From assembly GCA_023136245.1 (NCBI GenBank), contig JAGLRO010000046.1:1-45554 (forward strand): DNA of 45,554 bases, read 5' to 3'. Positions within the stretch are counted from its first letter, which is position 1. The number at the start of each line of letters is the position of its first letter. Below are positions 3,022 through 29,996 of this stretch, piece after piece. Under the pieces are notes generated by a model, which had not been told where the DNA came from, did not search any database, and worked only from the letters and a program-made list of their open reading frames with translations. This DNA is from Candidatus Heimdallarchaeota archaeon (GTDB taxonomy: Archaea; Asgardarchaeota; Heimdallarchaeia; Heimdallarchaeales; Heimdallarchaeaceae). Position numbers and translations under genes: made by a program.

Positions 3022-3288
3022 TTATTCTTGGTTAATTTCACTTTCTTCGTTTTTTTCTTCTAGTACATCTTCTTTAGGAGCTCTTGTTCTTAAGAAATTC
3101 CAACCGATCCATGTTGTTAATAACATAAATGCAAGAATTGCTATGAAAACAACAATTGCTAAAGCTAGATATGCTTTTAGTGTTACTTCGCCTTCTATTA
3201 TGGGGAGCAAAATAGTCCATACAAATATAAATCCAATAACTCCTAATGATCCAAAAATCATTACTAGACCGATCATTTTATCATTCAT
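3022..3288 (-). CDS. Small two-helix membrane protein, unknown function
   Basis: An 88-residue protein with two hydrophobic helices (about residues 5-30 and 38-65) and a charged, glutamate-rich C-terminal tail ending EEKNEESEINQE. I do not recognise a family. It sits between the gene for A-ATPase subunit F, 54 bases upstream, and NAC, about 20 bases downstream, on the same strand. The position suggests a role near the ATPase or the ribosome-membrane interface, but nothing in the sequence shows this. Codon use resembles the neighbours, so it is probably a real gene. Confidence 0.6.
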   Translation of the reverse strand: MNDKMIGLVMIFGSLGVIGFIFVWTILLPIIEGEVTLKAYLALAIVVFIAILAFMLLTTWIGWNFLRTRAPKEDVLEEKNEESEINQE

Positions 3289-3342: not shown

Positions 3343-3672
3343 TTACATTTCAATGTCTATACCTAATGCCATTTTTATTAAAGCTCTCACTTTATCTTCT
3401 GCACTTTCATACTTAGCTTTTTTACCTGGTACTTCAATTATTACAGGATAAGGTTCTGCTCTCATTCTTCTAATCAAATCTTTATTAGCTTTTGCTACTT
3501 CCTCTGTAACAATTAATATGGCAAGCTCAGGATCTTCAGAAAGAGTACGTAAAAGAGGAGCGGATTTATCAGGCTCTTCTGTAAAAACCTCAGAAATTCC
3601 AGCCAACTTGAATCCCAGAGAAGTTTCTTCATCTCCTATACTAACAATTTTACTACGTTGCTGAGTGCTCAT
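3343..3672 (-). CDS. atpF: A-type ATPase subunit F
   Basis: A roughly 109-residue protein with the CheY-like fold of V/A-ATPase subunit F, part of the central stalk of the ion-translocating ATPase. Typical segments are KIVSIGDEETSLGFKLAGI at the N terminus, ELAILIVTEEVAKANKDLI in the middle and YPVIIEVPGKK before the C-terminal helix. The ATG at 3672 gives MSTQQRSKIVSIG, a usual start for the family; a GTG nine bases upstream is the alternative. The subunit H gene ends 18 bases upstream on the same strand. Subunits I, K, E, C, A, B and D are not next to it, so the usual ATPase operon is split in this genome. Confidence 0.9.
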   Translation of the reverse strand: MSTQQRSKIVSIGDEETSLGFKLAGISEVFTEEPDKSAPLLRTLSEDPELAILIVTEEVAKANKDLIRRMRAEPYPVIIEVPGKKAKYESAEDKVRALIKMALGIDIEM

Positions 3673-3690
3673 ATTTACCACGTTTGGTTA

Positions 3691-3999
3691 TCAGAAGATA
3701 GTTGACTGTATCAAATCAATTGCTTTTTTGTCTATATTCTTTGATTTAGCTTTTAGTTGGTTTTGCTCTTCTTCAAATACATTAAGCATCTTGACATATT
3801 CTTTTTCTACACGATTCTTGACACCTGATAGAATCTTACTTGCTTCTTCTTTAGCTTGAATTTCAGAATCTCTAATTCGTAACACTGCATGCTTTTCTGC
3901 TTCCATTAATGCGATTTCCTTTTCAGATTCAGTATTCTTTATCTTTTGTTCACAATCTCGCTCAGTTTCTCTAATTGATTTTAGAAATTCAATGCTCAT
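3691..3999 (-). CDS. ahaH: A-type ATPase subunit H (AhaH, peripheral stalk)
   Basis: A 102-residue, almost wholly helical and charged protein with heptad patterning over most of its length (ETERDCEQKIKNTESEKEIA, EIQAKEEASKIL). This is as expected for the coiled-coil peripheral stalk subunit that pairs with subunit E in archaeal ATPases. It is first in a run with subunit F on the same strand. The identification rests on size, coiled-coil character and its neighbour, because the family is weakly conserved in sequence. The divergent gene for a phosphohexomutase starts 153 bases upstream. Confidence 0.78.
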   Translation of the reverse strand: MSIEFLKSIRETERDCEQKIKNTESEKEIALMEAEKHAVLRIRDSEIQAKEEASKILSGVKNRVEKEYVKMLNVFEEEQNQLKAKSKNIDKKAIDLIQSTIF

Positions 4000-4151: not shown

Positions 4152-5519
4152 ATGAAGAGGAAATATTTTGGTACCAATGGAATACGTGGTGAGTTTGGAA
4201 AATTAATAAACCCAAAATTTCTCTCAAGAATGAGTCTTGCAATAGCATCATCCCTAAACAATAAGGGAACAATTGTTTTGGGATCAGATTCACGTCTTAG
4301 CAGTCCATTCATCAAACATATTATAACAGCAAACCTCATAGCAAGTGGAATCGAAATAATCGATCTTGGAATTGTACCTACTCCCCTTGTTCAATTTGCT
4401 GTTACTCATTTAAAAGCACACTTAGGTACAGTAATTACTGCTAGTCATAATCCTCCTGAATTCAATGGCATCAAAGTTATAGACTCAGATGGAATTGAAA
4501 TCAGTATTAAAAAACAACTTAAATTAGAAGAAAATTTTGAAAAGAATATCTCAAATTTCACTAAATGGGATAAAGTCGCAGATGTTTCAACAATGAATCT
4601 TATCCCAGATTATGTTGAGCAGATTGTCAGTGTGGTTGATGAAGAGAAAATAAGAAAAAGGAAACTGACTGCTGTTGTTGATGGAGGGAATTCAGTTGGT
4701 GGGTTAGTTACGCCTCTTGTACTAAAACGATTAGGAATAAAAGTTATTTCAATTAATTGTCAACTTGATGGTAGGTTTCCAGGAAGAGGTGTAGAACCAT
4801 CACCTGAAGAACTCGGAAAAATGAGTAATGTAGCATCTTATTCAAAAGCTGATTTTGCAATTGCTCATGATGGAGATGCAGATAGAGCGATATTCGGAGA
4901 TGAGAAAGGTAGTGTATTTTACGGAGATAGATCAATTGCTATTTTTGAGAAATGGGTATTTGGCAATATTCAAAATAAGAAATTTGTTACTCCTGTAAGT
5001 TCTTCTAATGTTGTAATAGATATAGCTGAAGAGCTCGGAGTGGAAATTATCTGGACCCCTGTTGGTTGTATTTATGTTAGTAGAACAATGATTGAAAGCA
5101 AGAGTATGTTAGGAGGAGAAGAAAATGGTGGTCTTTTTTATGCTCCTCATCAATGCGTGAGAGATGGAGCAATGGCTGCAGCACTAATGGCTAATATTAT
5201 CGCTGAGACGAATAGAAAATTAAGTGAATTAGAGAAAGAATTACCTAAATATCATCAAAAAAAAGAGAAAATTAAATGCTCTGATTTTCTGAAAGAGAAA
5301 GTTATGAGTTACATAGAAAACAATGTGCCAAAAGAAGTTGAAGTAAATACAATTGATGGACTGAAACTAATCTATCCTGCTGGATGGATTCTAATTAGAC
5401 CATCTGGAACTGAACCAATTTTTAGAATTTTTGTGGAATCTAATACAGAAAAAGATACAAATGAGAAGATGAAGAAAGGAATAACTCTTGTTAATAATGC
5501 AGTAGAAAAATACAGCTGA
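4152..5519 (+). CDS. glmM: Phosphoglucosamine mutase / phosphohexomutase (GlmM-type)
   Basis: A 455-residue alpha-D-phosphohexomutase that likely converts glucosamine-6-phosphate to glucosamine-1-phosphate. All four active-site loops are present: the phosphoserine loop ITASHNPPEFNGIK, the metal-binding DGDADRAIF, the sugar loop GGEENGGLFY, and the phosphate-binding RPSGTEPIFRIF near the C terminus. The N terminus KYFGTNGIRGEFG is typical of archaeal GlmM. It would supply the step missing from the GlmS/GlmU-like cluster at 20.1-24.4 kb. The exact sugar (glucosamine, mannose or glucose) cannot be read from the sequence with certainty. A second, diverged mutase is encoded at 36015. Confidence 0.88.
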   Translation: MKRKYFGTNGIRGEFGKLINPKFLSRMSLAIASSLNNKGTIVLGSDSRLSSPFIKHIITANLIASGIEIIDLGIVPTPLVQFAVTHLKAHLGTVITASHNPPEFNGIKVIDSDGIEISIKKQLKLEENFEKNISNFTKWDKVADVSTMNLIPDYVEQIVSVVDEEKIRKRKLTAVVDGGNSVGGLVTPLVLKRLGIKVISINCQLDGRFPGRGVEPSPEELGKMSNVASYSKADFAIAHDGDADRAIFGDEKGSVFYGDRSIAIFEKWVFGNIQNKKFVTPVSSSNVVIDIAEELGVEIIWTPVGCIYVSRTMIESKSMLGGEENGGLFYAPHQCVRDGAMAAALMANIIAETNRKLSELEKELPKYHQKKEKIKCSDFLKEKVMSYIENNVPKEVEVNTIDGLKLIYPAGWILIRPSGTEPIFRIFVESNTEKDTNEKMKKGITLVNNAVEKYS

Positions 5520-5662: not shown

Positions 5663-5997
5663 ATGACAACTGCTGATTCTGAACAAATAGGTGAGATAGA
5701 AAGAATAGCAGGTCCGGTAGTGCAGGCTTCTAATATGCGTGGATCTAAGCTTTATGATGTTACTAGAGTTGGAGATGAGAAACTTGTTGGTGAAATAATT
5801 CGATTAACCGAAGATTCATTAATCAAGACTATCATGAGGATAGATCTATATTTGAATCATTGGATATAGGTTGGGATCTGCTTTCAACATTTGATAATCC
5901 CTATAGAGTTCTCAAGAGAATTCCATCAGAAGTTATTGACAAATTCCATCCTGAAAAGAGAGACAAGAATTCAAAATTCGATTCTGTAGAAGTATAA
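5663..5997 (+). pseudogene. Remnant joining the start of A-ATPase subunit A to the end of subunit B
   Basis: The first ~52 codons encode an intact start of the catalytic subunit [21 protein letters not shown], then [13 protein letters not shown]. At about 5815 the match stops, and a +2 frame takes over with the C terminus of subunit [21 protein letters not shown], then [20 protein letters not shown], ending in TAA at 5995-5997. The first frame ends at TAG 5867-5869. So about 2.5-3 kb of an atpA-atpB pair seems to be missing, leaving an out-of-frame scar. An AT-rich promoter-like stretch remains upstream (about 5610-5622). It is either a genuine deletion in a duplicate copy or an assembly collapse. 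Neither ATP-binding domain remains, so no function is expected. Confidence 0.82.
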
Positions 5998-6012: not shown

Positions 6013-6774
6013 TTATTCTAATACTACACAATCTGTATTATTTATTTTTAACCATTTATTCACTTTCAAAATATTATCAAGTAAGTTAATCTTAATAGCA
6101 AAGTTAACATCTTCCATAAAGCCTAGTTTCTTTAACTCCAACGCATTAGGAGCATTCTTAAGAAGTTTTTTAATATTAGCTGATTGTGCAAGTATTTTTT
6201 GTGTTTTTTCGAGAAATACACTTTTACTTTCTATTGTACTTTTTTGTCTCTTAGAGATTTCGTCTGCAATTAAAACACTGGTAACCCAGTCCTCTAAGAT
6301 ATATGTTGTCTCATCAGAATAATAACCAGCTGGAATTATACTAATGTCTTTCTGCTCTTTTACTGCAATTTCAGAGATTTCAACTGCAATTTTAGCTAAA
6401 TTCACTAAAGCACCAACATAAACTTGCTCATTTGGAGGAGGAATTCTAATCGCTTTTGCACCACTGGTTGAAGTGAAAATTATTTCCATATCACTAAAAT
6501 CAAGATTAAAAAATTCTGATGGTGTGTTTCCATAATCAAATCCAGTTATTTTCAATCCTCCTTTTTCCCCAATCAAAAGACATTCTTCGGAAAGTTCATT
6601 CTGAATACTTCTAGCATCATCTTCATTTTGAACAACATATATTCTCTTAGCTCCAGCATATTTTAGAGTAAGTAATGAAGTAGTTGCTCTAAAAGTATCT
6701 ACAATTATATGAATCATCTTATCAAAAATATTTCTAGTTCTCACAGCTGATGGATTATTTATATGAATTATCAT
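6013..6774 (-). CDS. comB: 2-phosphosulfolactate phosphatase-like protein (ComB family)
   Basis: A protein of about 253 residues of the ComB family, Mg-dependent phosphatases that dephosphorylate 2-phosphosulfolactate on the route to sulfolactate and coenzyme M. Family motifs are IIVDTFRATTSLLTL, CLLIGEKGGLKITGFDYGN, EIIFTSTSGAKAI and YVGALVNLAKIA. I chose the ATG at 6774 (MIIHINNPSAV) because a TATA-like box is centred about 29 bases upstream, which fits a leaderless transcript. An open frame extends 32 codons further but reads as intergenic DNA. No other coenzyme M genes are seen here, so the substrate could differ. Confidence 0.8.
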   Translation of the reverse strand: MIIHINNPSAVRTRNIFDKMIHIIVDTFRATTSLLTLKYAGAKRIYVVQNEDDARSIQNELSEECLLIGEKGGLKITGFDYGNTPSEFFNLDFSDMEIIFTSTSGAKAIRIPPPNEQVYVGALVNLAKIAVEISEIAVKEQKDISIIPAGYYSDETTYILEDWVTSVLIADEISKRQKSTIESKSVFLEKTQKILAQSANIKKLLKNAPNALELKKLGFMEDVNFAIKINLLDNILKVNKWLKINNTDCVVLE

Positions 6775-6798
6775 AAACATACGATTATTCACAATGGG

Positions 6799-6807
6799 TA
6801 TAAATAT
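6799..6807 (-). promoter_or_regulatory. TATA box of the comB-like gene
   Basis: On the minus strand the bases read ATATTTATA, centred about 29 bases before the ATG at 6774. This spacing predicts transcription starting at or next to the start codon and supports the shorter gene start. Confidence 0.5.
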
Positions 6808-6913
6808 TATTTTGGTTAGAAATAGTAAATCAATATTTGTTGTCACAATTCTTTTAACTGAAATCAACATTGATACTAAAAGTTAAAAAAATCATAAGCA
6901 CAAAAGAAAATAA

Positions 6914-6990
6914 GGCAGGATGGTCTAGTTTGGAATGATACTTGCTTCGGGGGCAAGAGAACAAGGGTTCAATTCCCTTTCCTGCCACCA
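6914..6990 (+). tRNA. tRNA-Pro(CGG), no intron, CCA encoded
   Basis: The cloverleaf is complete. The acceptor GGCAGGA pairs with TCCTGCC, the anticodon stem is CTTGC/GCAAG around loop TTCGGGG (anticodon CGG), and the T stem AAGGG/CCCTT encloses TTCAATT. The discriminator is A at 6987, and CCA at 6988-6990 is genomic. No intron is present, unlike four of the other five tRNAs here. Confidence 0.95.
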
Positions 6991-10421: not shown

Positions 10422-10706
10422 ATGAAAAGGAATTCTGTAGGTCTAATGATACTCATAGTAATTTTCTTAGTTGCTTTTTCTTAAGATTCAAAAACAAATA
10501 TAACTCTTATTCATGCAGATGACAATCCAGTGGAGACTTATGCACTACTTTTTGACCAGTTTCCTGTCATAGTTGACAATGAAACAATGTGTTCTGCTCT
10601 AGATATAAAAGCGAGTCTTCTAGATTTAGGATGGCAAGAAGAAAATATCAGTTTGTTTTTAGGCGATGAAAATCTTACTATTTTCGATGGAATGAGCTTT
10701 TCTTGA
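10422..10706 (+). pseudogene. Broken secreted-protein gene, possibly caspase/gingipain-like
   Basis: From ATG 10422 the frame encodes a signal-peptide-like MKRNSVGLMILIVIFLVAFS, then an in-frame TAA at 10482-10484. The frame continues with DSKTNITLIHADDNPVETYA, a hydrophobic strand, then LLDLGWQEENISLFLGDENL, and stops at TGA 10704-10706. The pattern of a leader, then YALLF, then LGWQEENISLFLGDE resembles the start of secreted caspase-like (C14/C25 type) proteins of archaea. The catalytic region is absent. The last 48 bases run into the opposite-strand membrane protease gene. I read it as a decayed fragment. The caspase link is a weak inference from a short stretch. Confidence 0.55.
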
Positions 10707-29913: not shown

Positions 29914-29996
29914 TGGAGCCAGGACGGGGATTTGAACCCCGGAGGCGAATGCCAGTGGTTTTCGAGACCACCACCTTACCGCTTGGTTATCCTGGC
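29914..29996 (-). tRNA. tRNA-Ser(CGA), no intron, CCA encoded, U73
   Basis: The acceptor GCCAGGA pairs with TCCTGGC, the anticodon stem GTGGT/ACCAC encloses CTCGAAA (anticodon CGA), the variable arm GGC..GCC is of type II, and the T arm is CGGGG TTCAAAT CCCCG. CCA is genomic at 29914-29916. The discriminator base before it is T, whereas serine tRNAs normally have G73. Confidence 0.93.

Follow-up and report, generated by a model that had tools for sequence, protein, structure and literature searches.

The inherited ATP synthase of a Heimdallarchaeota archaeon (genome G000) was probably lost recently through at least three deletions, after a second V-type ATPase had made it dispensable. The inherited complex is called type 1 below and the second complex type 2. 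One of the deletions lies in the window, the whole stretch of 45,554 bp that was analysed (C206:1-45554), which belongs to an assembly of 2,266,433 bases in 264 contigs that is 82.6% complete. At positions 5663-5815 (+) the window holds the start codon and codons 1-51 of type-1 subunit A, recognized from the translation and a match to PF02874 (26.7 bits, above the Pfam cut-off of 20.9). The last 60 codons and the stop codon of type-1 subunit B follow at 5815-5997 (+), with a match to PF22919 (27.6 bits, above the cut-off of 24.7). Translation places the B stop codon (5995-5997) in a different frame from the A stub, the frame of which stays open for another 17 codons beyond the join and closes with a stop at 5867-5869. 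The out-of-frame junction was located at 5811-5818 by alignment with relatives, from each of which the window differs by the absence of 2,898-2,912 bp, or about 2.9 kb. The scar is thus confirmed as present in the assembly. It had been proposed in a sequence-only reading as an out-of-frame join of the start of A to the end of B, with about 52 A codons, 60 B codons from 5815 and a loss of about 2.5-3 kb, all of which agrees with what was found. Where a functional pair would consist of single frames of about 595 amino acids for A and about 480-505 for B, the locus holds stubs of 51 and 60 codons, and the nucleotide-binding core (PF00006) has no match in the window.

Nine relatives were used to reconstruct the locus; they are the archaeal members of a set of 80 loci retrieved by means of the gene upstream of A-B, a member of the phosphoglucomutase/phosphomannomutase family (4152-5519, +; PF02878-PF02880 and PF00408). 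Eight belong to the same genus and one to the same family. In all nine the mutase gene is followed by an A of 595-597 amino acids and, some 3 kb farther along, by the end of B; the B frames at this place are stop-free and 480-504 amino acids long. The A stub is 84% identical to the A N-terminus in G003, G009, G011 and G017, and the B stub is 70-80% identical to B of the nine relatives at the same place. Against these sequences the join lies after A residue 51 and ahead of the conserved FINQD motif of B; past this point the A side in relatives reads D-L/V-A-T-I. The place and neighbours of an intact gene are therefore preserved in 9/9 relatives while its internal segment is gone from the window, as in a pseudogene formed by deletion. 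Across 20 same-genus genomes no A scar like that of G000 was seen: the type-1 A N-terminus lies within an open frame of 596-611 amino acids in 19, and in the twentieth, G008, type-1 A is interrupted by a contig end. Since the intact pair follows the same upstream gene in the relatives, the locus in the window was inherited, and this genome is the only one that shows the scar. A full pair at this very place in reads of related strains had been put forward as grounds to doubt the scar; such a pair is indeed present, in assemblies of other species, where it gives the ancestral state of the locus. The locus is that of the head pair of an A/V-type ATP synthase inherited in a Heimdallarchaeota-type lineage.

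The genes around the scar are conserved to differing degrees. Type-1 subunit F is intact at 3343-3681 (-; PF01990, 78.0 bits) and occurs at the same place in eight of the nine relatives with 77-81% identity, the ninth stretch being too short. Adjoining it at 3691-3999 (-) is an intact H-like coiled-coil protein found at the same place in 9/9 relatives (50-63% identical); it has no family match above cut-off and is tentatively assigned as subunit H. The downstream neighbour, a 2-phosphosulfolactate phosphatase-like gene (6013-6870, -; PF04029, 142.9 bits), has a match after B in eight of the nine relatives, partial in L041 and reduced to a C-terminal piece in L042, with no match in L037. Two tRNA genes, tRNA-Pro (cgg) at 6914-6990 and tRNA-Ser (cga) at 29914-29996, were also noted in the window.

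At the A-B join, comparison with the relatives permits at most about 5 bases of possible microhomology, around AGATT, the lost bases themselves being invisible. Long homology was rejected on this basis, and the short homology around ATTCATT suggested earlier found no support. With so little homology, end joining or slippage is the likely route, and the deletions as a group may have arisen in this way, with little or no homology.

Two further scars were found in the same complex. The loci of subunits I, C and K were read in six same-genus relatives (G001, G003, G005, G009, G011 and G012), none of which showed scars in these genes. In the six, I (1,065 amino acids in G001) adjoins C (330 amino acids) beside a gene of about 600 amino acids, the product of which looks from its sequence like a transporter solute-binding protein, and which is itself reduced to a stub in G011. 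On contig C124 of G000 (37,556 bp, the scar being internal) what comes immediately after this neighbour gene is the final 119 codons of C, which run from 3628 to a stop codon that ends at 3269. The whole of I and some 211 codons from the start of C are absent, a loss of about 3.9-4.0 kb. A profile search with PF01992 recovered from G000 the subunit C of contig C221, described below, and the C-terminal stub at C124:3296-3592. An inverted segment close to the I-C scar was considered as its cause and rejected, as G003 has the same orientation with whole I and C. Subunit K (~100 amino acids) lies in the six relatives between a 136-amino-acid gene and a gene that we take to be ESCRT-III (Snf7)-like. 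Between the same two neighbours G000 has a stub at C254:3618-3706, joined near 3662, which keeps approximately the first 15 codons (matched by eye) and the last 14, out of frame; it measures 89 bp against 303 bp in G001, so that about 214 bp are missing. As a separate observation, type-1 K stands directly beside two presumed ESCRT-III (Snf7-like) genes in six relatives (L174, 6240-9214; G003, G005, G009, G011 and G012), with a presumed Vps4-like gene next to this cluster in five of them; the G003 stretch ends before that point.

The type-1 subunits that remain whole in G000 are F and the H-like protein in the window, D at C2:2819-3397 and E at C188:57699-58280. Subunit D probably lies just past the left end of the window, since a single gene is divided, part of it at the left end of C206 and part at the left end of C2. 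The lost set thus comprises the head (A, B) together with the membrane motor and coupling subunit (I, K, C), and the genes of the soluble stalk are kept. At least three separate deletions, of about 2.9 kb at A-B, 3.9-4.0 kb at I-C and 214 bp at K, would have taken out the catalytic head as well as the membrane motor, leaving start stubs, end stubs or both in place. The sequence-only reading had judged from the intact F and H that loss of the only A/B copy was improbable, but G000 has also lost subunit I, the greater part of C and almost the whole of K.

A complete second ATPase is encoded on contig C221, with subunits A, B, C, D, E, F, I and K and an H-like gene that scores below curated cut-offs. 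The order is A, B, D, one small additional gene, E, I and a two-hairpin K, then C, which is on the opposite strand, and the H-like gene; F lies upstream of A, also on the opposite strand. Searches of G000 with PF00006, PF01496 and PF00137 found the C221 set alone, and type-1 A, B, I and K were found nowhere else in this 82.6% complete assembly at E <= 0.001. The expectation that another A/B pair exists elsewhere in the genome was therefore borne out, and a genome-wide search does return a full pair, of type 2; it returns no full type-1 pair at that threshold. The accompanying suggestion that the deleted locus was a duplicate was mistaken, for the deleted pair is the one the lineage inherited and the surviving pair is the divergent type. 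Type-1 and type-2 B share about 51% identity. In a tree of 29 sequences type-1 B groups with members of its family, order and class, to which it is 65-85% identical, and type-2 B forms a separate long branch, the attachment of which is weakly supported (0.746). Among solved structures, type-2 B comes closest to beta chains of V-type ATP synthases, for example 3a5c, which we take to be the Thermus V-type ATP synthase.

At E <= 1e-130, type-2 B was found with at least 78% identity in 16 of 20 same-genus genomes and in 0 of 37 other genomes of the class (best match 54%), so that in the 58 genomes of the class it is limited to this genus. Of the genomes without it, G009 and G014 contain other type-2 parts, and G006 has type-2 parts at a contig end. 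No type-2 subunit was found in G003 by searches for A/B, C, D, E, I and K, and its type-1 complex is whole, so that this genome is the mirror image of G000. Type-2 A measures 600 amino acids in G000 and has no intein-like insertion. Open frames of 1,151-1,172 amino acids were seen for type-2 A in G004 (C39), G007 (C40), G008 (C187), G010 (C182) and G018 (C89), with the PF00006 match split near its start in each of the four frames searched; to judge by sequence, these frames look like intein carriers. Long A frames also occur in G022 (1,096) and G029 (1,124). The type-2 complex would have made type 1 dispensable in G000 and would now do its work.

The frequency of comparable scars elsewhere in the genome was estimated by scanning about 430 kb of G001 genes against about 329 kb of G000, on contigs picked in part for holding ATPase genes. 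Seven type-1 loci were counted (A-B, I-C, K, D, E, F and H-like). The background consisted of 153 non-type-1 genes matched at no less than 40% and not cut by contig ends, with nine cut genes left out and three places each matched by two queries. Scars were present in 3/7 type-1 loci and in 2/152 other genes (Fisher p = 0.0005). When stubless losses were counted in the background the enrichment was weaker, at 3/7 against 13/163 (p = 0.019). One of the two other stubs, at about 12228-12330 of C221 (contig coordinates; L003), is the C-terminal ~35 codons of a putative acyl-CoA synthetase-like gene of 536 amino acids, the rest of which is absent between intact neighbours. The other, at window positions 10422-10679 (+), is the N-terminal piece of a putative secreted caspase/legumain-like protein of about 418 amino acids; it has an in-frame stop after 20 codons and is 49% identical over 86 amino acids to the G001 gene. 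Further flagged truncations were set aside: one at 63945 and two on C80 reflect divergence, with room for a whole gene, those at 107554 and 295958 lie at contig ends, and that at 266151 is an AAA paralogue. A control scan over 213 kb of relatives flagged 9 of 245 gene-place pairs, of which two were judged to be real stubs: the neighbour gene of subunit I in G011 (L182, 7488-7811), a place where two queries matched, and, in G019, the phosphatase-like gene (L042, 12812-12925). These two suggest that such scars occur in this genus. The other control flags were taken as paralogues or divergence; the type-1 H-like gene of G003, for instance, was covered to 0.66 by the G001 query but over 102/102 residues by the protein of the window.

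These counts bear on undirected erosion, in which deletions are removing many genes across the genome and the type-1 ATPase merely happens to be among these. The two additional stubs fit such a process, as do 11 non-ATPase genes that are missing between anchors (no match, or for one gene a weak match of 20 residues only) and an assembly of 2.27 Mb compared with 2.3-3.8 Mb in same-genus relatives. Stubs outside the complex nevertheless amount to about 1%, similar to the control, against three of seven loci inside it, and erosion of this kind is considered unlikely. A link to loss of aerobic respiration was also rejected, as COX1 is absent from G000 and also from the 14 same-genus genomes searched.

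The age of the losses was approached through mean distances to outgroup genomes, with G000 compared with G003 and G006. The A stub gave 0.190 (G003 0.168, G006 0.207), the B stub 0.240 (0.199 and 0.223), slightly more diverged than both, and the C stub 0.279 (G003 0.306, no value for G006). For the orphan subunits the distances, with those of G003 and G006 in parentheses, were 0.128 for D (0.119, 0.126), 0.403 for E (0.427, 0.420), 0.211 for F (0.208, 0.187) and 0.419 for the H-like protein (0.400, 0.412); the mutase gene, as control, gave 0.378 (0.370, 0.364). No clear acceleration relative to G003 and G006 was seen in stubs or orphan subunits, and relaxed constraint on the orphan subunits was not seen in this comparison. 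As a rough guide under assumed rates of stops and indels, about 873 undamaged codons are unlikely beyond about 1% neutral change (P = 0.03). Lack of clear decay and undamaged codons together mean that the losses are either recent or artefacts.

Should the joins be chimeric or wrongly bridged, 2.9 kb, about 4 kb and 0.2 kb would have been dropped and the type-1 ATPase would really be whole. The fragmentation and incompleteness of the MAG lend this some weight, as do stubs that show no clear decay. However, the three joins fall on three contigs within a single complex, and only 2/152 other comparable genes have stubs, so that chance assembly collapse, which the sequence-only reading had kept as its alternative, is unlikely. 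The 335-bp scar region has two other matches in the assembly, of 21-24 bases at 90-92% identity (E 0.19 and 0.66), too short and weak for a repeat-driven collapse at the A-B join, which was rejected, and a search for overlap at this join revealed none of assembler length. In addition, none of the missing genes turns up on another contig at the threshold given above, stubs of other genes occur in relatives, and the in-frame stop of the caspase-like stub is a mark of real decay. An artefact is therefore judged quite improbable, and we infer that the deletions are physically real and recent. That they are real in only part of the population, other cells of the species keeping a whole type-1 ATPase, is less probable still: a segregating or very young deletion would be expected to lack decay, but the contigs run straight through all three joins, the bin holds no intact allele, and a major alternative allele would normally break a contig.

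Beyond recent loss of a dispensable type-1 synthase, a bolder and doubtful extension is that selection against a half-machine drove the order of loss, deletion of the first module making the other harmful and hence quickly deleted. Free V1 of Thermus has ATP-hydrolysing activity, and proton conduction by free Vo is absent below 120 mV but present above 130 mV (PMC7367684); losing one module could thus select for losing the other. A free A3B3DF head would burn ATP, a free membrane motor could leak protons at high voltage, and the soluble stalk subunits (D, E, F and H-like), being harmless, would be left behind. Three loci can be drawn from seven in 35 ways, of which the lost triple is 1; as a single pattern in a single genome it gives this reading weak support.

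Replacement of an archaeal ATP synthase is normally inferred from trees afterwards; in the present case the old complex seems to have been caught midway through its loss, in an Asgard lineage near the ancestor of eukaryotes. If this is correct, a cell can rely on the second V-type ATPase of the genus as its sole rotary ATPase, and the sequence of steps by which a motor of many subunits is taken apart becomes open to study. No description of two V-type ATPases in Heimdallarchaeota, or of ATP synthase loss in Asgard archaea, was present among the matches listed from open-licence PubMed Central. Compared with the type-1 synthase of the same genus (JABLTJ010000001.1 and JAUVXV010000001.1), the loci, neighbours and frames are the same up to the joins, and A, B, C, I and K are here truncated or gone. 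The Thermus V/A-ATPase (PMC7367684) shares the subunit plan of type 2, with no loss. The closest parallel set out here is with Thaumarchaeota, in which A-type and V-type-like ATPases are reported to have replaced each other (PMC6863869), hadopelagic members hold both types, and loss of the original type is inferred elsewhere. As in those ammonia-oxidizing Thaumarchaeota, a second divergent ATPase is present here, with some members having both types and others one; in G000 the second ATPase is complete, and A, B, C, I and K of the original are truncated or absent in the assembly. The operon of the Thaumarchaeota was swapped in place between conserved neighbours, whereas type 2 is on C221, away from the type-1 loci. 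The inherited genes are here dispersed over several loci, and their loss is visible as stubs and orphan subunits.
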